64,000 nucleotides of DNA from Streptomyces sp. ICC1 (GTDB lineage Bacteria; Actinomycetota; Actinomycetes; Streptomycetales; Streptomycetaceae): the NCBI RefSeq assembly GCF_003287935.1, contig NZ_CP030287.1, positions 4,678,267 to 4,742,266 on the forward strand, given 5' to 3'. The translations under genes and the position numbers were made by a program. The first letter of the stretch is position 1, and each line of letters starts with the position of its first letter. The notes below the pieces were generated by a model. The model ran no database searches, was not told where the DNA came from, and worked only from the letters and a program-made list of their open reading frames with translations. Shown here in pieces: positions 16,602 through 24,466 of this stretch.

Positions 16602-18260
16602 CTACCGGAACGTACCTCCGTTCAGGTGGCTGTTCCCTCTTACTACCTGCAACGATGCGCCTTCCCCGCCAGTTCCAAATCTATTCACAAGTTTTTTGCC
16701 CCGTACGCGTTGCGGACCGGATCCGCCCGGATCGGACCGGTCCCGTCCGGGCGCGCCGGGACGGCCGAAGGAACCGGCCGTGGCGGCCACCACGGCCGCC
16801 CCGCACACGGGTCCGGCCCCGGCCGCGCGCAGCGCCCGCGCGGCCTCCGCCAGCGTGGCCCCGGTGGTCACGAGATCGTCCACGAGCACGATCCGGGCCG
16901 CCCCGGCCGTCACCCGCACGGCGTCCGGCCCGGCCTCCATGGCCCCCGCGAGGTTCTCCCGGCGCTCCGGCGCCCCCAGGCCCGCCTGGTCGGCCACCGC
17001 CCGCCGCAGCCGCAGTACGGGCGCCACGCGCGCGGGCACACCGGCCCGCCGCAGCCGCGCCGAGGCGGCCAGCGCGATCCTGCGCGCCGGATCGTGTCCG
17101 CGCGCCCGGACCCGGTGGCGCGCGGAGGGCGCGGCGACCAGGACCACCTCCCCCGACTCCCCCCCCACATCGAACGTCCCCCCGCCGCCATGCGGCCCCT
17201 CCACGCCCCGGCCCCGCTGAGCCCCACCGCCGCCGGCGGGGCCCCGAGGGGCGGGGCGGGCGGCGGAGGGGACCTGCTGGGTGATGCAGTGGACGCCGCC
17301 ACCGCCGTACGCGATCACGCGCGAGCGGACCCCGACGACCTTGCGGCCGGGCAGCGCGGCCGCGATGACGGCGAGCGCGCCCTCGTCCTCGGAGGTGCCG
17401 GCGACCGGGACGACGACCCCGCCGTTGGCGATGTAGAAGTTCAGGTAGCCGACCTCGGTCTCCCGGCCGTCGACCTCGACGAACGCGCTCTGCGGCAGGT
17501 CGATGATCTCGAACGGTCGCCCGGCGGCGTCGGTGGCCGCCTCCAGGACGGCGCGGTTCGCGCGCATGCGCTCGTGGTCCGGATGTTCGGGGTCGCCCGG
17601 CAGGGTCACGATCACCTTGCCGGGGGCGACGAAGGCGCAGACGCCGTCCACGTGCCCGTCGGTCTCGGTGTCCAGCAGGCCGCCGTACGGCAGCCAGATC
17701 ACCTTGGTGACACCGAGGCGGGCGATCAGCTCGGCCTCGATCTCCGCCTTGGTCATGTCCGGGTTGCGGTTCGGGTGCAGGAGGCACTGCTCGGTGGTGA
17801 TCAGCGTGCCCTCGCCGTCGACGGTGATCGCGCCGCCCTCGAGGATCATCCGGGAGTCGATCCGGTCCACGCCGAAGTGCTGCAGCAGGGCCGCGGCGAT
17901 CTTGTCGTCGGTGTCGTAGGGGAAGTGCTTGCCGCCCCAGGCGTTGAAGCGGAAGTCCACGCCGGCCCGCTGCCCGTCGGGACCGAGGACGAAGATCGGC
18001 CCGGAGTCCCGGAACCAGGAGTCGTCCAGCGGAAGCTCGATCACCTCGACGCCGTCCCCGCACAGCGCGCGGGCCTCGTCCCCGCTGCCGGGCAGGGCCA
18101 CCATGGTGACCGGCTCGAACGCGGCGATCGCGGCCGCGACCTGGGCGTACTCGGCCTTGACCTCGTCGAAGACTTCGCCCCACAGCTCCTGGCGGGTGGG
18201 CCACGCCATCAGACAGCCTTCGTGGTCGGTCCACTCGGCGGGCATCCGGAACGTCGTCAT
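16602..18260 (-). CDS. Agmatine deiminase fused in frame to a ComF-like phosphoribosyltransferase remnant (chimera)
   Basis: One open frame of 552 codons. Residues 1 to about 338 are a complete agmatine deiminase (agmatine to N-carbamoylputrescine plus ammonia, cytosolic). The catalytic D85 is in DSWFRDSGP, H203 in TDGHVDG, and C325 in GGGGVHCITQQ close to the normal C-terminus. After a glycine-rich stretch (about 338-366), residues 367-552 are the C-terminal half of a ComF-type protein, with the PRPP loop IVLVDDLVTTGATL; its zinc-finger front half is missing. Start ATG 18260 has AGGAG six bases upstream. The join at about 17162-17246 is very G-rich. ComF next to hpf is normal Streptomyces order, so the break lies inside comF. 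Either a rearrangement created a read-through fusion, or this is an assembly join. Confidence 0.85.
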   Translation of the reverse strand: MTTFRMPAEWTDHEGCLMAWPTRQELWGEVFDEVKAEYAQVAAAIAAFEPVTMVALPGSGDEARALCGDGVEVIELPLDDSWFRDSGPIFVLGPDGQRAGVDFRFNAWGGKHFPYDTDDKIAAALLQHFGVDRIDSRMILEGGAITVDGEGTLITTEQCLLHPNRNPDMTKAEIEAELIARLGVTKVIWLPYGGLLDTETDGHVDGVCAFVAPGKVIVTLPGDPEHPDHERMRANRAVLEAATDAAGRPFEIIDLPQSAFVEVDGRETEVGYLNFYIANGGVVVPVAGTSEDEGALAVIAAALPGRKVVGVRSRVIAYGGGGVHCITQQVPSAARPAPRGPAGGGGAQRGRGVEGPHGGGGTFDVGGESGEVVLVAAPSARHRVRARGHDPARRIALAASARLRRAGVPARVAPVLRLRRAVADQAGLGAPERRENLAGAMEAGPDAVRVTAGAARIVLVDDLVTTGATLAEAARALRAAGAGPVCGAAVVAATAGSFGRPGAPGRDRSDPGGSGPQRVRGKKLVNRFGTGGEGASLQVVRGNSHLNGGTFR

Positions 18261-18269
18261 GATCTCTCC

Positions 18270-18287
18270 TGTTTGAAAATTCAGTCA
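18270..18287. promoter_or_regulatory. Putative TetR operator O1 (agmatine deiminase leader)
   Basis: tgtttgaa-aa-ttcagtca, an imperfect copy of the palindrome tgactgaa-aa-ttcagtca. It ends ten bases from the deiminase ATG, over the ribosome-binding region, so binding would block expression directly. Confidence 0.7.
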
Positions 18288-18354
18288 GTATTCGTGTCGA
18301 GGGTGTGGGCTCGTCACGGGCGATGGGGTGTGGTGGTTGCCCGAATCCTCCACC

Positions 18355-18372
18355 GAACTGAAAATTCAGTCA
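18355..18372. promoter_or_regulatory. Putative TetR operator O2 (between the divergent genes)
   Basis: gaactgaa-aa-ttcagtca, with the same right arm and centre as O1 and O3. It lies 200 bases upstream of the tetR start and 95 upstream of the deiminase start, well placed for joint control. Confidence 0.7.
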
Positions 18373-18572
18373 ATGGTTCTGGCCAAGCTGATGCGGAATC
18401 GGACACACCGGGTGTCAGGCGGGAGGAACCACACCCCTGCTCCGGGGGCAGGCGGGGCAAGGGGGTGCATCGATATGGCCCTGATCACGGCATTGCTACC
18501 GGAAGCAGCGGCCCTGATGTTACGGTCAGGAAAAGCCCCAGGTGACGGACCCGACGGGTAGAGTGACTCCTC

Positions 18573-19145
18573 GTGTCAGACCGTCGAACAGAAATACTCA
18601 GGGCCGCCACGCGCGTCATCGCGCGCCGCGGCGTGCGCGGGCTCCGCGTGGGAGAGCTGGCAGCCGAGGCCGGCGTGTCCACCTCGCTGATCTACTACCA
18701 CTTCACCGACCGCGCCGGGATCCTCCGCCGGACGCTGGAGTTCATCAGCGACCGCGCCGAGCGCTACACCGCCGAGCGCGAGGCCGGCGCGGACGGCGGC
18801 GAGAGCCCCCGCGACGAACTGACGCAGGTCCTGCTCCTCGAGCTCCAGGACACCCCGGAGGTCCGCGAGAACAGCACGGCCTGGGGCGAGCTCCGGGCCA
18901 GCGCCGTCTTCGATCCGGACCTGCGCGAGGAGGTGGCGAAAGCCACCCACAGCTGGGTGCACGAGATCTCCTACCTCCTGGCCCAGGCCAGGCCCGTCGG
19001 CACGGCCCCCGAGCACGCGGCCGCCGCCGAGCGCCTGACGGCCCTCCTCGAGGGCCTCAGCGTCCGCTGGCTCAGCGGCTCGCTGCCCCTGGAGCACGCA
19101 CGCCGTCTCCTCTCCGACGCGATCACGGCAGAACTGGACGCCTAG
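18573..19145 (+). CDS. TetR/AcrR-family regulator of the agmatine deiminase/urease block
   Basis: A 190-residue repressor-type protein. The N-terminal helix-turn-helix (about 5-50) reads RTEILRAATRVIARRGVRGLRVGELAAEAGVSTSLIYYHF, and an all-helical ligand/dimer domain follows. It is divergent from the agmatine deiminase, and three matching palindromes in the neighbouring promoters are its likely operators; the ligand is unknown. GTG 18573 lacks a Shine-Dalgarno but has a TAGAGT hexamer eight bases upstream, compatible with a leaderless or near-leaderless transcript. Its TAG stop is formed by the CTAG end of the palindromic element at 19142. Confidence 0.88.
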   Translation: MSDRRTEILRAATRVIARRGVRGLRVGELAAEAGVSTSLIYYHFTDRAGILRRTLEFISDRAERYTAEREAGADGGESPRDELTQVLLLELQDTPEVRENSTAWGELRASAVFDPDLREEVAKATHSWVHEISYLLAQARPVGTAPEHAAAAERLTALLEGLSVRWLSGSLPLEHARRLLSDAITAELDA

Positions 19146-19310
19146 GCCGTCTCTTTCGGATCTTGTCGGCCGAGCCCGCGGCGTCTGGTGCCGTGCCTGG
19201 CAAGGCGGAGGGGCGCTGCGTGTACTGGACGTACTCGGGCGTTCCGACAACGCGGCCAGGCGCGGTGCCAGGCGCCGCGGGCCCGGCAAGATCCGAAAGA
19301 GACGGCCTAG
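19142..19310. mobile_element. MITE-like palindromic element, copy A (169 bp, CTAG ends)
   Basis: The terminal inverted repeats begin ctaggccgtctctttcgg and continue near-perfectly for about 58 bases on each side. There is no coding capacity. The core shares caaggcggagg, gtactggacgtac and tccgacaacgcggc with copy B (43638-43802, reverse orientation). The element fills the whole space between the convergent tetR and ureC genes, and its CTAG ends supply both TAG stops. As RNA it would fold into a very long hairpin and probably terminates both genes. Mobility by a transposase encoded elsewhere is inferred from the structure. Confidence 0.85.
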
Positions 19311-21070
19311 AGGAAGTAGAGGCGGCCGAGCGAGATGGAGTCGGCCGGTTCCGAGACCAGGGGCTCGCCGTCCAGGGACACCAGGCCGGTGCCGGGGTGC
19401 ACGTCGACGCTGCCGGTACGGGAGTTGCGGAGCATGTCCTTCGGCCCGATGCCCCGGGTCCCGCGGACCGCGACGCGGCGGCGCCGGGTGGGCATCAGGT
19501 CGCCGTTCTGCACGGCGGCCTCCGCGACGAACGCCACCGATATGTCGGCCGCGGTCGCCCCGTACGAGCCGAACTGCGGCCCGAGGACCAGCGGTTCGCA
19601 GCGGTCGGTGGAGGCGTTCGGATCGCCGGTGACCCCGTACGCCGGGAAGCCGCCCTTGAGGACCAACTGCGGCTTGGCGCCGAAGTACTGGGGCCACCAC
19701 AGCACGAGGTCGGCGAGCTTGCCGACCTCGATCGAGCCGACCTCGTGCGCGAGGCCGTGGGCGATCGCCGGGTTGATGGTGAGCTTGGCCATGTAGCGCA
19801 GGACGCGCTCGTTGTCGTCGCCGCTCTCGGCGGTGCCGTAGGACCCTTCGCCGTCCAGCGGGCCGAGCTCGGTCTTCATCTTCCCGGCCATCGCGAAGGT
19901 GCGGCGTACGGTCTCGCCCGCGCGGCCCATGCCCTGCGCGTCGGAGGAGGTGATCCCGATGACCCCGAGGTCGTGCAGGAGGTCCTCGGCGCCCATGGTG
20001 CCCGCGCGGATCCGGTCGCGGGCCATGGCGGCGTCACCGGGCAGGTCGACCTTCAGGTCGTGCGCCGAGACGATCATGCCGAAGTGCTCGCCGAGCGCGT
20101 CCCGGCCGAAGGGCAGGGTGGGGTTGGTGGAGGAGCCGATCACGTTCGGCACGCCGGCCATCTTCAGGACGTTGGGGACGTGTCCGCCGCCGCAGCCCTC
20201 GATGTGGAAGGCGTGGATGGTGCGGCCGTCCAGCACCCGCAGGGTGTCCTCGACGGACAGGCACTCGTTCAACCCGTCCGTGTGCAGGGCGACTTGCACG
20301 TCGTGTTCCTCGGCCACGCGCAGGGCGGTGTCCAGGGCGCGGGTGTGGGCGCCCATGTCCTCGTGGACCTTGAAGCCGCTCGCACCGCCCTCGGCGAGGG
20401 CCTCGACGAGCGGAGCCGGGTCGGAGGACGAACCGCGGGCGAGGAAGCCGATGTTGACGGGCCAGGCGTCGAAGGCGTTGAAGGCGTGCTTGAGCGCCCA
20501 CGGGGAGTTGACTCCGACGCCCCATACCGGGCCGAACTCCTGGCCGATGATCGTGGTGACCCCGGACGCGAGCGAGGCCTCCATGATGCGGGGGGACAGC
20601 AGGTGCACGTGGGTGTCGACGGCGCCGGCGGTGACGATCATGCCCTCGCCCGAGACGATGGTCGTACCCGTGCCGACGACCACCTCCACCCCGTCGAGGG
20701 TGTCGGGGTTCCCGGCGCGGCCGATCGCGTGGATGCGGCCCTCGCGGATGCCGATGCTGGTCTTGCGGATGCCGAGCACCGCGTCGATGACCAGTGCGTT
20801 GCTGATCACGATGTCGCAGGTGTCGCGGACGGCGGCGGCCTTCAGGTGCAGTCCGTCGCGGGCGGTCTTGCCGAAGCCGGCGAGGAACTCGTCGCCGGGC
20901 TTCTGGGAATCGGACTCGACGCGGACGATGAGCCCGGAGTCGCCGAGCCGGATGCGGTCCCCGGCGCGGGGGCCGTGCACCGCCATGTAGTCGTACGGGT
21001 CCGTGCTGTCCGCCGGAGCGCCGCCCGGGCGGCCGTGACAGCCCGCGGAGTCGAAGATGCTGCCGCTCAT
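19307..21070 (-). CDS. ureC: Urease alpha subunit, divergent (second-locus type)
   Basis: Catalytic subunit of a nickel urease-type amidohydrolase, 587 residues, cytoplasmic. The metal ligands are all recognisable: H154 and H156 (DTHVH), K234 for carbamylation (GFKVHED), H263 (ALHTDGLNE), H289 (AFHIEG) and D377 (SSDAQGMGR). The mobile flap differs from classical ureases: the CHH triplet reads A336-H337-D338, keeping the acid histidine but losing the flap cysteine. ATG 21070 overlaps the ureAB stop (ATGA). No accessory genes (ureD, E, F, G) are nearby, so nickel loading would need genes elsewhere. Upstream genes and the shared operator suggest TetR control. It may act on urea or on a ureido compound; urea is the default. 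Confidence 0.9.
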   Translation of the reverse strand: MSGSIFDSAGCHGRPGGAPADSTDPYDYMAVHGPRAGDRIRLGDSGLIVRVESDSQKPGDEFLAGFGKTARDGLHLKAAAVRDTCDIVISNALVIDAVLGIRKTSIGIREGRIHAIGRAGNPDTLDGVEVVVGTGTTIVSGEGMIVTAGAVDTHVHLLSPRIMEASLASGVTTIIGQEFGPVWGVGVNSPWALKHAFNAFDAWPVNIGFLARGSSSDPAPLVEALAEGGASGFKVHEDMGAHTRALDTALRVAEEHDVQVALHTDGLNECLSVEDTLRVLDGRTIHAFHIEGCGGGHVPNVLKMAGVPNVIGSSTNPTLPFGRDALGEHFGMIVSAHDLKVDLPGDAAMARDRIRAGTMGAEDLLHDLGVIGITSSDAQGMGRAGETVRRTFAMAGKMKTELGPLDGEGSYGTAESGDDNERVLRYMAKLTINPAIAHGLAHEVGSIEVGKLADLVLWWPQYFGAKPQLVLKGGFPAYGVTGDPNASTDRCEPLVLGPQFGSYGATAADISVAFVAEAAVQNGDLMPTRRRRVAVRGTRGIGPKDMLRNSRTGSVDVHPGTGLVSLDGEPLVSEPADSISLGRLYFL

Positions 21071-21780
21071 GCCTGTTCCTGCTCCTGCTCCTGGTATGCG
21101 GTGAGGTACCCCGTGGCGCGGGCCTTGGCCAGGGCGGCCTCCCGGGCGCCGGGCGCGTCCAGGGGGCCGTCGACGAGGCCGGCGAAACCGATGGTGACGC
21201 GCGCCCCGCCGATGGGCAGCAGCTCCACGGCGACGGAGGACCCGGCGTCGAACCGGACCGAGGCGCCCGCCGGCGCGGCGAGCCGGGTGCCGTAGGCCGC
21301 GGCGCGGTCGAAGGCGAGGCGCGGGTTCGCCTCGAAGAAGTGGAAGTGCGAGGTGACGCTGATGGGCACGCTCGCGGTGTTGCGCACGAGCAGCCGCACC
21401 GTCGGCTCGACCCGCTGATAGCCCGCGCCGTCCCCGGGCAGGCCGGCGCCGGGGGCGTCGGGCCCGAGCGAACCCGCCTCCCGGAAGGGGTCGTCGATGA
21501 CGCAGAGCCGCGTACCGTCGTCGAAGACTGCCTCGACCTGGATCGAGGTGACCACGTCGGGCACCCCGGGCAGGACCTCGTCCGCGCTCAGCACGTGTCG
21601 CCCCGCTTCGATCGCCTCGGCCAGCCGGCGGCCGTCCCGGGCCGCCTCGCAAACGGTGTCGGTGATCAGCGCGGTCGCCTCGGGGACGTTGAGCTTCACG
21701 CCGCGGGCCCGGCGGGCACGGGCCAGTTCCGCCGCCGTGAAGATCAGCAGCCGGTCCCGCTCGGTCGGTGTCAGTCGCAT
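21067..21780 (-). CDS. ureAB: Fused urease gamma/beta subunit
   Basis: A 237-residue fusion of the two small urease subunits. The gamma part (1-100) starts MRLTPTERDRLLIFTAAELARARRARG and has LNVPEATALI. The beta part (about 112-225) has VRLLVRNTASVPISVTSHFHFFEANPRLAFDR. The C-terminus is a QEQEQEQA tail. The chain forms the structural trimer with UreC. ATG 21780 lies 77 bases after the stop of the exported deiminase gene, with which it is probably co-transcribed. The gamma-beta fusion is known from the second urease loci of Streptomyces. Confidence 0.9.
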   Translation of the reverse strand: MRLTPTERDRLLIFTAAELARARRARGVKLNVPEATALITDTVCEAARDGRRLAEAIEAGRHVLSADEVLPGVPDVVTSIQVEAVFDDGTRLCVIDDPFREAGSLGPDAPGAGLPGDGAGYQRVEPTVRLLVRNTASVPISVTSHFHFFEANPRLAFDRAAAYGTRLAAPAGASVRFDAGSSVAVELLPIGGARVTIGFAGLVDGPLDAPGAREAALAKARATGYLTAYQEQEQEQA

Positions 21781-21845
21781 ACGGCCTCATCTGTGAAGGG
21801 GGGCGGGGCGGAGCGGCTCCGGCCGGGGCGGCCTGCGGCCGCCTG

Positions 21846-21861
21846 CCGGTCACAGCACTAG
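21846..21861. mobile_element. Isolated end of the CTAG palindromic element
   Basis: ccggtcacagcactag matches the terminal inverted repeat of copy B (ctagtgctgtgaccgg, reversed). No second end or core is seen within 200 bases. It is either a relic of an excised or deleted element or a coincidental target-like sequence. Its CTA provides the stop of the exported deiminase. Confidence 0.6.
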
Positions 21862-23024
21862 GCGAGCGGTTCCTGCATCGTGGAGCAGTGGATGCCGCCG
21901 CCCCCGGCCATCAGCCGGTCGACGTCCAGCTGCACCACGGTCCGGCCGGGGAAGGCCTCCGCCAGGGTCCGCTTGGCCGCCGCGTCCTTCACGGCGTCCC
22001 CGAACTGGGCGGTGATGACAGCCCCGTTGACCACGTGGAAGTTCATGTACGAGTCGACGAAATCGGACTTCTTCGAGCGCACGGTGTCGGGGCCCTCGAC
22101 CTTGACGACCGTCAGGCGCCGCCCCCGGGCGTCCGTGGCACCGGAGAGGATCGAGAACTGCTCGCGGGCGTCGCGCGCCCAGACGTCGTCGCGGTCCGCC
22201 GGCGGCACCTGCACCATCACGACACCCGGCCGGATGAAGCGCGAGGTCACGTCGATGTGGTCGTCGGTGATGTCCTTGCCCTTGATGCCGGGCACCCAGA
22301 TCATCTTGTCCGCGCCGTACGCCCGCAGGACGGCGTCCTCGACCTCGGCCCGGCTCATCCCGCGGTTGCGGTTCTTGTTGACCAGGCTGCTCTCCGTGGC
22401 CATCACCGTGCCGTCGCCGTCGGTCTCGATCGCCCCGCCCTCGCCGACGAACTCGGTCCGGCTGAAGGGGAGATGGTTGTCGTACGCGATGGTCTCGGCG
22501 ACATCGGCGTCGTAGGAGTGGGCCTGCTTGTTGCCCCAGCCGTTGAAGTTCAGGCCGATGGCGTCGAGTCCGCCGCGGCCGTCCCGGCGGAAGACCGGGG
22601 CGATGTCGCGCATCCAGAGGTCGTCGGTGGGAACCGAGGTGATCACGGTGACCGCGGGGCCGCACCAGGAGCGGGCGGTGGCGGCCGTGTAGGAGTCCGG
22701 CGCGCACATCACGACGGGCTCGTGGCGGGCGATCGTCTTCGCGATCAGCGCGATGTCCTCCTGGACCCCGGTCAGTGCGCGGCCGCCCCAGATGGACGAG
22801 CGCGAGGGCCAGGACATCCAGGTGCGGGCGTGGGGGACGTCGTCCCGGTCCACCCGCCAGCGCGGGACCGCAGGGTTCACGGGCCGGGGCACCGCCGCGG
22901 CCGCGGAGCCCAGCACGGCTCCCGCCGCCCCGAGGCCGACGGTCCCCAGGACGCGCCTGCGGGAGGGTGCGGAGCCGAAGAGCCGGCCGAGGACGGTGCG
23001 GCCGGTTCCGGGGGACTCGCTCAT
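21858..23024 (-). CDS. Tat-exported agmatine deiminase/peptidyl-arginine-deiminase-like enzyme
   Basis: A 388-residue guanidino-modifying enzyme with an export signal: twin arginine SRRRVLG (21-27), then a hydrophobic helix ending near AAAAVPRP (about residue 48). The mature part keeps the catalytic residues D140 (DDLWMRDIAP), H256 (TDDHIDV) and C380 (GGGGIHCSTMQEP). It likely deiminates agmatine or arginine-like groups outside the cell, with the product unknown. The palindrome at 23093-23110 lies 68 bases upstream and matches those near the cytosolic deiminase, so co-regulation by the TetR protein is inferred. It is followed by ureAB-ureC on the same strand. The stop codon falls in a CTAG element end, but the conserved C-terminus is intact. 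Confidence 0.88.
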   Translation of the reverse strand: MSESPGTGRTVLGRLFGSAPSRRRVLGTVGLGAAGAVLGSAAAAVPRPVNPAVPRWRVDRDDVPHARTWMSWPSRSSIWGGRALTGVQEDIALIAKTIARHEPVVMCAPDSYTAATARSWCGPAVTVITSVPTDDLWMRDIAPVFRRDGRGGLDAIGLNFNGWGNKQAHSYDADVAETIAYDNHLPFSRTEFVGEGGAIETDGDGTVMATESSLVNKNRNRGMSRAEVEDAVLRAYGADKMIWVPGIKGKDITDDHIDVTSRFIRPGVVMVQVPPADRDDVWARDAREQFSILSGATDARGRRLTVVKVEGPDTVRSKKSDFVDSYMNFHVVNGAVITAQFGDAVKDAAAKRTLAEAFPGRTVVQLDVDRLMAGGGGIHCSTMQEPLA

Positions 23025-23092
23025 GGGTGTGTCTCCCTATCGAGTGGGATCAAGTGGGTGTGCCGGTTCCGGCGATGACCCGACTCTGTCAC

Positions 23093-23110
23093 TGACTGAA
23101 AATTCAGTCA
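23093..23110. promoter_or_regulatory. Putative TetR operator O3 (exported deiminase-urease promoter)
   Basis: tgactgaa-aa-ttcagtca has perfect eight-base arms and is the best copy of the three. It overlaps the last codons and stop of the neighbouring ABC ATPase gene. Confidence 0.75.
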
Positions 23111-24330
23111 AGATCTGAGACGTGCGCGGCCCCGGAGAGCCGATGGGACGGCAGGGGCAGCGGGCGTGGAGGGGGTGGCGAAGTGTGGAGGGGGGTGCGC
23201 ACCGGTTCCTGGGGCTGGGCGGGGCCGGGGGAGGGCGCGGCCCCGGCGAGCTCGCCCGGGCTGCCGGGCATCAGGAACGGCCGCCCGTCCGTCCCGGGCG
23301 GCGGGGGCGCGAAGAACCCGGCCTGCGGGACCTCGACGGCGGCGGCCGCCGCCTCCTCCTCCCACTTCGGGACGGACAGCGGCTCGGGCTCCCACAGCTC
23401 GGCCCGGGGGTCCTCGGTGGAGGTGTACTCGACGGAGGACTGCGTCATCCGCATGTAGGCCTCCTCCAGCGAGGCCCGGTGCGGCGACAGCTCCCACAGC
23501 CGTACGCCGGCGGCGTGCGCGAGGTCCGAGATCCGGGCCAGCTCCAGCCCGGTCACCCGCAGCGCCCCGTCGGGCTCCTTGAGCACCCGGCCCCCCGCCC
23601 TGCTGAGGACGGAGCCCAGGGTGTCCCAGCCGTCGGGGTCGGTGTCGGCCGTGCGGACCCGCGCGAATCCGGCCGAGTTGTGCGTGATGAAGTCCGCGGT
23701 GCTCATGTCGGCCAGCAGCCGGCCCCGGCCGATCACGATCAGGTGGTCGGCGGTCAGCGCCATCTCGCTCATCAGGTGCGAGGAGACGAAGACGGTGCGG
23801 CCCTCGGCGGCGAGCCGGCGCATCAGGTTGCGGACCCAGAGGATGCCCTCGGGGTCGAGCCCGTTGACCGGCTCGTCGAAGAGCACCACCTGCGGGTCTC
23901 CGAGCAGGGCGGTCGCGATGCCCAGCCGCTGGCCCATGCCGAGCGAGAAGCCCTTCGTGCGCTGCCGGGCGACGTCCTGGAGGCCCACGACGCCCAGGAC
24001 CTCATCGACCCGCTTCTCGGGGATCCCGGAGAGCTGGGCGATGGACAGGAGGTGGGTGCGGGCCCGGCGGCCGCCGTGCACGGCCTTGGCGTCGAGCAGG
24101 GCGCCGACGTGCCGCTGGGCGTTGGCCAGCTCACGGAAGGGCAGGCCGTTGATGGTGACCCGGCCGGAGGTGGGGCGGTCCAGGCCGAGGACCAGGCGCA
24201 TGGTGGTGGACTTCCCGGAGCCGTTGGGCCCCAGGAATCCCGTCACGTGACCGGGCCTGACCTGGAAGGACAGGTCGTCGACGGCGGTCTTCGCGCCGAA
24301 GCGCTTGGTCAGCCCGACTGCCTCGATCAT
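23104..24330 (-). CDS. ABC transporter ATPase with proline-rich tail
   Basis: ATP-binding subunit of an ABC-2-type exporter, 408 residues. It has Walker A GPNGSGKST, signature FSLGMGQRLGIA, Walker B VVLFDEPVNGLDP and VSSHLMSE. ATG 24330 begins the family-standard MIEAVGLTKRFGAK. After about residue 300 the tail becomes proline- and alanine-rich (GFFAPPPPG, then a segment rich in P, L and H), and the TGA stop lies inside the TetR operator. The ATPase is close to the one at 25249-26244, and with the permease at 24467 they form one transporter set. The very end of the tail may mark another synteny break. Confidence 0.88.
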   Translation of the reverse strand: MIEAVGLTKRFGAKTAVDDLSFQVRPGHVTGFLGPNGSGKSTTMRLVLGLDRPTSGRVTINGLPFRELANAQRHVGALLDAKAVHGGRRARTHLLSIAQLSGIPEKRVDEVLGVVGLQDVARQRTKGFSLGMGQRLGIATALLGDPQVVLFDEPVNGLDPEGILWVRNLMRRLAAEGRTVFVSSHLMSEMALTADHLIVIGRGRLLADMSTADFITHNSAGFARVRTADTDPDGWDTLGSVLSRAGGRVLKEPDGALRVTGLELARISDLAHAAGVRLWELSPHRASLEEAYMRMTQSSVEYTSTEDPRAELWEPEPLSVPKWEEEAAAAAVEVPQAGFFAPPPPGTDGRPFLMPGSPGELAGAAPSPGPAQPQEPVRTPLHTSPPPPRPLPLPSHRLSGAAHVSDLD

Positions 24331-24466
24331 GTGCTCTGCCCCTTGCCAGGCCGGGGCGAGTTTCGCCCCTGTAAGGGTTAAGAGGATAACGAGGTTCCTA
24401 CGGTTCCGTCCCGGGCCTGATCCCTGAGCTGCCCCTGAGATCGACCCGGGCATTCCCCGTAGTACC

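Follow-up and report, generated by a model that had tools for sequence, protein, structure and literature searches.

This study provides comparative genomic evidence that three similar palindromes in a 64-kb stretch of the Streptomyces sp. ICC1 chromosome (hereafter the window; positions 4678267-4742266 of NZ_CP030287.1, a single record of 9.03 Mb) most likely serve as operators of a TetR-family repressor controlling a regulon for the catabolism of guanidino compounds. They lie in a block that holds two agmatine-deiminase-like genes (deim1 and deim2), the candidate repressor gene tetR1, and the urease-like genes ureAB and ureC (Table 1). The sites, their specificity across the genome, and their strict co-occurrence with this TetR protein and these genes are observed.

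A search of the window with the pattern TGACTGAANNTTCAGTCA, allowing up to three mismatches, yielded exactly three matches, at 18270, 18355, and 23093, against a mean of 0.03 in dinucleotide shuffles of the window, none of 100 of which reached three. A preliminary description of this DNA had reported three palindromes with no further copy in the 64 kb, and had placed them before the cytosolic deiminase gene, before the exported deiminase-ureAB-ureC set, and in the divergent region of tetR; the mismatch scan and the gene positions agree with it on both points. The copy at 23093 begins 69 bases from the start of deim2, which encodes the deiminase with the twin-arginine translocation (Tat) type of signal.

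The whole genome was scanned in the same way, as the preliminary description had suggested. Eight places were found, two without mismatches, one with one, two with two, and three with three, so that the earlier statement of no other copy applies within the window and not genome-wide. Both two-mismatch sites and one of the two perfect sites (23093) are those of the window. As the reversed pattern used as a control also gave three places in the whole genome, the three sites with three mismatches are at chance level. All five sites with zero to two mismatches precede pathway or tetR genes. The second perfect copy, at 5492685, ends 50 bases 5' of a carbon-nitrogen hydrolase gene (aguB-like) located 0.8 Mb from the block. 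The top NCBIfam model of this gene is TIGR03381 (N-carbamoylputrescine amidase, 244 bits) and the best solved relative of its protein is 5h8i, an N-carbamoylputrescine amidohydrolase (175 bits); the gene would supply the second step in the agmatine deiminase route, and the palindrome alone led to it. The one-mismatch copy, at 8184131, stands 48 bases 5' of a second tetR gene (tetR2, 8.18 Mb), whose protein is about 70% identical to TetR1.

The association was then examined across the genus in 150 genomes, this one included, with sites counted at zero or one mismatch and TetR1 matches at E <= 1e-20. Sites were found in 24 genomes (three for the reversed pattern) and TetR1 matches in 28; all 24 site-bearing genomes belong to the TetR set, and none of the 122 genomes outside it carries a site (Fisher 5e-24, kinship ignored). 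The gene classes around the 60 sites were assigned by tblastn with proteins from this genome and two others (a permease from locus L066 and a kinase from locus L073; L and G numbers are our handles for loci and genomes). A listed gene lies downstream of 59 of the 60 sites, which stand -60 to 450 bases upstream of it, and the overlapping class counts were deiminase 37, TetR 18, UreAB 5, AguB-like 5, permease 4, and serine/threonine (Ser/Thr) kinase 4. This count is partly circular, since the reference proteins come from site-bearing loci and the permease and kinase were chosen as site neighbours; when these two classes were dropped, 55 of the 60 sites were still upstream of a listed gene. This genome itself contributes three of the 60 sites and one of the five AguB cases. 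The single exception, in L045, is found 3' of a TetR gene and not far from where the contig stops. Of the operator-linked proteins, the permease belongs with the cytosine/purine/allantoin permeases (PF02133) and the kinase with PF00069. The Ser/Thr protein kinase genes, found 10-176 bases behind the operator in L054, L065, L067, and L073, are unexpected for a catabolic regulon.

As an independent test, a further set of loci was drawn from named genomes with similarity to the TetR protein as the sole criterion. The best 80 of 237 relatives gave 74 distinct loci from Streptomyces, Kitasatospora, Streptacidiphilus, Streptantibioticus, and Embleya, together with one record named Saccharothrix; among these best 80, the closest named TetR1 was that of Streptomyces sp. 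ISL-43 (94%). At zero or one mismatch, these loci contain 98 sites against two for the reversed pattern, and at two mismatches 157 against 26; the sites are not fully independent of one another because some loci overlap on one contig. At least one site is present in 63 of the 74 loci at zero or one mismatch and in 66 at up to two mismatches. Of the 98 sites, 82 stand ahead of a listed gene, and, with margins of 60 bases, no site falls within such a gene. The 151 distinct sites of the genus set and the TetR-recruited set give the consensus TTGACTGAAWWTTCAGTCAA, the core of which is sharp by choice because the sites were selected at zero or one mismatch, the outer T/A and central A/T positions being free.

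Taken together, the TetR protein encoded by every site carrier, the genes behind the sites, and the test on the 74 loci give the earlier proposal of a TetR-controlled deiminase/urease regulon strong support from comparative genomics, but do not support its confinement to the block; its urease, the UreC protein of which falls in a separate clade, is probably not an ordinary one. It is well supported by these comparisons that the predicted regulon is larger than the block: in this genome it takes in tetR2 and the aguB-like gene 0.8 Mb away, and elsewhere in the genus genes for a permease and a protein kinase. If this is true, a single 20-bp site would predict the genes for guanidino-compound breakdown in Streptomyces even where they are far apart on the chromosome.

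The regulator has the features of the TetR family: TetR1 scores 47.5 bits with PF00440 (cut-off 24) and 57.1 bits with PF13977 (cut-off 27), a palindromic operator lies near the targets and co-occurs with the protein, and the recognition-helix region is near-invariant across 15 aligned TetRs. Binding, repression, inducer, and substrate are the parts of the regulon that we infer, with classical repression as the likely mode. The repressor (TetR1, probably also its paralogue TetR2) would recognise the consensus and block the promoters of the cytosolic and exported agmatine-type deiminases, the urease-like UreAB-UreC, and the AguB-type amidase encoded far from the block. Release of the repressor would come from a compound of the pathway (agmatine, its N-carbamoyl product, or a relative), from which the cell could then take nitrogen. 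By eye, the minus strand of the operator offers TTGACT as a possible -35 element, 17 nt before GAGGAT at deim1 and likewise before CAGAGT at deim2.

Several findings weigh against the regulon as proposed. The operators yielded no sigma-70-type promoter when scanned with a consensus, so the -35 element is a reading by eye only. The left arms of both copies in the divergent gap are degenerate; because these asymmetric copies recur in the same gap of relatives, the weak arms look conserved and not accidental (TGTTTGAAAATTCAGTCA, beginning TGTTTG, in L126, L127, and L200 and with one further change in L199; GAACTGAAAATTCAGTCA, beginning GAACTG, in L199 and, among others, L129, L132, L137, and L138). 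Four TetR-matching genomes have no site with zero or one mismatch, namely G022 (TetR identity just 37%), G089, G113, and G122; between tetR and the deiminase gene, G089 has a two-mismatch copy, G122 a three-mismatch copy, and G113 none. Among the TetR-recruited loci, 16 of the 98 sites precede no listed gene, and a site directly before the TetR gene was found in only 51 of the 74 loci at up to two mismatches and in only 13 at zero or one. The genome encodes two TetR paralogues, each a possible owner of the sites. A second AguB-like gene (L202) scores higher (260 bits) than the operator-linked one, and no site with up to three mismatches was found within the surrounding 14 kb. Finally, both deiminases fall short of TIGR03380, the agmatine deiminase equivalog (340 bits for deim1 and 227 for deim2, cut-off 381.8), and the operator-linked AguB-like amidase falls short of TIGR03381, its best model, with a cut-off of 410.25 bits.

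Other explanations were also weighed. That the site is a chance or mobile-element palindrome without a regulatory role is favoured solely by its short length; it was ruled out by the shuffles and reversed-pattern controls and is contradicted by the same gene families standing behind the sites in 24 genomes, which leaves it a negligible probability. A possible, though somewhat doubtful, alternative is that the operator is mostly a TetR2 site, or one common to the two paralogues, with the adjoining tetR1 as a secondary copy, or a diverged one, whose product acts there too. TetR2, with its close relationship to TetR1 and its own upstream site, would fit such a role; TetR1 orthologues of 89-92% occur only in G073, G082, and G133 besides this genome, the remaining site-bearing genomes having the 59-72% type only, and in L199-L201 tetR2 stands immediately before the site of the (deim2-)ureAB-ureC genes. 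The two asymmetric sites of the tetR1/deim1 gap are, on the other side, kept in the TetR1-bearing relatives L126, L127, L199, and L200, which suggests that TetR1 uses the gap sites too.

A further alternative concerns the substrate. Both deiminases carry the PAD_porph domain and the C-terminal catalytic-cysteine motif, GGG(V/I)HC being visible in each. Because deim1, deim2, and the AguB-like amidase are all under the agmatine-specific cut-offs, some guanidino compound other than agmatine may be the substrate, with the deiminases, the amidase, and the urease-like enzyme forming a general guanidino-to-amine route; we give this a substantial chance, a little short of even. The operator is also common to several distinct deiminase types, and 6nib, which ranks first among solved structures related to deim1, carries the title peptidyl-arginine deiminase. 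Against this, the structures that rank next for deim1 are agmatine deiminase/iminohydrolase entries, the amidase has an N-carbamoylputrescine amidohydrolase as its solved relative, and the cut-offs may be too strict for Streptomyces.

Table 1. Putative operators and genes of the block, with positions in the window
Feature	Positions	Strand	Remarks
Putative operator copy 1	18270..18287	.	TGTTTGAAAATTCAGTCA; 2 mismatches; 9 bases, then the start codon of deim1
Putative operator copy 2	18355..18372	.	GAACTGAAAATTCAGTCA; 2 mismatches; tetR1/deim1 divergent gap
Putative operator copy 3	23093..23110	.	TGACTGAAAATTCAGTCA; 0 mismatches, perfect palindrome; 5' of the exported deiminase-ureAB-ureC genes
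deim1, cytosolic agmatine-deiminase-like enzyme	17262..18260 (frame 16602..18260)	-	PF04371 389 bits
tetR1, candidate repressor, TetR_N and BetI-type C-terminal domain	18573..19145	+	PF00440, PF13977
ureC-like alpha subunit, deiminase-linked clade	19307..21070	-	TIGR01792 626 bits (cut-off 680); NF009686 734 bits (cut-off 354)
ureAB-like fused gamma-beta subunit	21067..21780	-	PF00547, PF00699; NF009671 306 bits
deim2, deiminase with likely twin-arginine signal, leading the exported deiminase-ureAB-ureC set	21858..23024	-	PF04371 323 bits

The twin-arginine signal of deim2 scores 16.7 bits with TIGR01409, equal to the cut-off of 16.7. A fourth deiminase gene (L015:8625-9884), behind ABC-transporter genes, encodes a protein 55-58% identical to deim2, with a twin-arginine signal by eye; the genome-wide list of sites with up to three mismatches contains no operator copy near it.

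The UreC protein of the block is 88% identical to the UreC of a second locus of the same genome (L014) and, among the matches listed, only 46-47% identical to two canonical UreCs of the genome. Across the 150 genomes, the UreC matches listed fall into two sets separated by a gap, one of at least 76% identity (96 matches in 87 genomes) and one of 45-48%. Among named strains, the UreC proteins nearest to that of the block come from Streptomyces sp. AP-93, S. avidinii, and Streptomyces sp. ZAF1911 (97%). Thirty of the 96 matches were examined in detail, and in all 30 loci a deiminase gene adjoins the urease genes. Four loci are of the window type and 26 of the L014 type, with the order ureAB, ureC, deiminase and, in most, also a TetR gene and a permease gene in the flanks; the conservation of these 26 may trace largely to one ancestral locus. 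Within this genome, L014 (G000:C1:982000-1001000) is a second deiminase-ureAB-ureC-TetR-permease locus, beside ilvE-like and leuB-like genes. The operator pattern was searched for and is absent there, and the L014 TetR is just 31% identical to TetR1. Perfect 7+7 palindromes in the 220 bases 5' of ureAB were present in six of 31 loci (L014 and L209-L238), two of them alike (L231 and L238) and none at L014, so that this search gave no site for the L014 regulator. Three further canonical urease loci (L016, L017, and L018) bring the genome to five full UreC loci.

The clade has signatures of its own in 30 of 30 loci: HEDW has become HEDM, the flap-cysteine motif is replaced by MIVS(V/A)H, QAM reads QGM, and the roof loop, with NS-PW, is four residues shorter than the canonical one. 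A further member, L052, has HEDL in the alignment. The metal ligands and the equivalents of His219, His320, and Arg336, the residues expected of a nickel urease, are kept in all 30 loci; we take the roles and numbering of these active-site residues to be those of the urease structures. A loss of the catalytic His320 was considered and ruled out, since the pairwise alignment keeps the histidine and only the preceding cysteine is replaced. With regard to family models, this UreC misses TIGR01792, the nickel-urease UreC equivalog, and exceeds the cut-off of the broader subfamily NF009686.

Four genomes (G087, G093, G111, and G147) have a UreC of this clade as their sole match (E <= 1e-100), and in none of the four was UreF or an above-cut-off UreD, the two accessory proteins examined, found; G087 has a weak UreD-like match (23.3 bits, cut-off 27) and G111 is 91% complete. 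Among the genomes with canonical UreC that were tested, UreF was present in 12 of 12 and UreD in 10 of 12, and none of seven genomes without any UreC has either. The deiminase gene next to it in all loci examined, its changed active-site wall, and these four genomes, with neither UreF nor an above-cut-off UreD, make it improbable that the clade is an ordinary urease; the same four genomes make it probable that the enzyme matures without the usual accessory proteins. The replaced residues suggest that its pocket is probably wider.

Since the product of the adjoining deiminase should be a substituted urea, ureido hydrolysis is the natural guess for its reaction. The guanidino group would first be converted to a ureido group by the deiminase; the substituted urea would then be cleaved in the opened pocket of the urease-fold enzyme, for example N-carbamoylputrescine to an amine and carbamate, replacing or duplicating AguB. 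That the clade as a whole is an accessory-protein-independent ureidohydrolase, not a urease, across Streptomycetaceae, acting in series with the adjoining deiminase, is nevertheless a tentative proposal to which we attach a rather low probability. To the same low degree, ureAB-ureC may be an ordinary nickel urease that adds nitrogen scavenging and borrows accessory proteins from other urease loci: its metal ligands and the equivalents of His219, His320, and Arg336 are kept, this genome carries UreD and UreF at other loci, and published Streptomyces work counts ure(AB)C clusters as ureases, according to the available parts of PMC5489568 and PMC2492869. This explanation has to account for the four genomes with only this UreC, all lacking UreF and an above-cut-off UreD, and for the flap cysteine replaced by valine or alanine, the four-residue roof-loop gap, the change of QAM to QGM in every locus, and the unreached TIGR01792 cut-off. 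The clade is a widespread and probably mis-annotated "urease". If a ureidohydrolase, it would combine the urease fold with a new substrate in the absence of maturation proteins, which would bear on urease evolution, and it would affect gene-based counts of ureolysis, in which the clade is now included (for example PMC5489568, in the portion available).

The surroundings of the block are odd in this assembly, as the preliminary description had noted in calling the chromosome around it rearranged. The frame of deim1 has no stop of its own and continues through the region for a ComF-like phosphoribosyltransferase's C-terminal half (about 16602-17240), upstream of an hpf-like gene, whereas the N-terminal part of comF is found at 8.81 Mb (L206); the junction is either a translocation or a chimeric assembly. 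In L199-L201, the deiminase gene ends with a stop and is followed by a gene that by eye resembles a lipoprotein gene, and the block is flanked by tetR2 and a further deiminase gene, flanks that in this genome lie at 8.18 and 7.69 Mb. The whole record contains 162 19-mers resembling the Nextera mosaic end (74 and 88 on the two strands, up to three mismatches; controls 0 and 1), and the displacement of the block may therefore be an assembly fault. The window's own junctions contain no N and no adapter-like word. One such 19-mer lies beside tetR2 (L002), and the genome, though a single contig, has the look of a draft that was scaffolded with remnants of adapters left in place. At the other end of the block, the frame of an ABC-transporter ATPase (23104-24453) stops at a TGA within the perfect operator, as if the gene were fused to the block there. 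The order within the block is kept in G073, G082 (where deim2 is mostly missing), and G133, so that the regulon proposal is independent of the displacement and the oddity of the surroundings has no bearing on function.

Among the titles and abstracts listed in searches of PubMed Central (PMC), a scope that leaves most subscription papers outside, none concerned a TetR agmatine regulon in Streptomyces, this operator, or a urease-deiminase pair. The review PMC9397018, in its accessible text, describes AguA-AguB in P. aeruginosa but no comparable system in Streptomyces. For the urease-like genes, the available part of PMC2492869 describes Streptomyces ure(AB)C as fused ureAB and ureC with no accessory genes in the cluster, treated as urease, as such clusters also are in PMC5489568; PMC3293853, as far as its accessible text goes, lists SCO5525-5526 as ureABC, with no effect of ArgR or arginine on them. 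The layout of L014 resembles S. coelicolor SCO5525-5526 and S. avermitilis ure(AB)C, the gene names and the SCO match being our own reading. Beyond those papers, the present data add the deiminase adjoining all 30 loci, the changed active site, and the genomes without UreF.

A second urease-type enzyme besides the nickel enzyme is also known from Helicobacter mustelae, the iron-cofactor UreA2B2 (PMC11541087, available portion), which the present clade resembles in this respect. The clade shows no special closeness to the iron urease: 3qga ("urease subunit beta 2"), presumably the iron enzyme, reaches 505 bits, and the best urease entry 522. The iron urease UreA2B2 keeps the metal ligands and is not known to need accessory proteins.

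With regard to the regulator, TetR1 shares the BetI-type C-terminal domain PF13977 with BetI-type repressors, and its operator is a palindrome of the TTGAnTGAAnnTTCAnTCAA kind, which we take to resemble BetI sites. Unlike BetI, TetR1 is far under the BetI equivalog cut-offs (57.4 of 201.3 bits for TIGR03384 and 52 of 118 for NF001978), and the BCCT transporter gene 3' of aguB is the only betaine/choline-type gene seen near a site in this genome. The nearest counterpart by description is AguR of Pseudomonas aeruginosa, a TetR repressor that, according to the accessible part of PMC4287709, occupies the aguBA promoter and is released by agmatine. Control of an agmatine deiminase by a TetR protein is already known, and both systems combine a TetR-family protein, an agmatine-type deiminase, and an AguB-type amidase. 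The Streptomyces system differs from that of AguR in that its aguB lies 0.8 Mb away, linked by the operator alone, in its two TetR paralogues, and in bringing a Tat-type deiminase, a urease-like enzyme, and, elsewhere, a permease and a Ser/Thr kinase under what would be the same operator.

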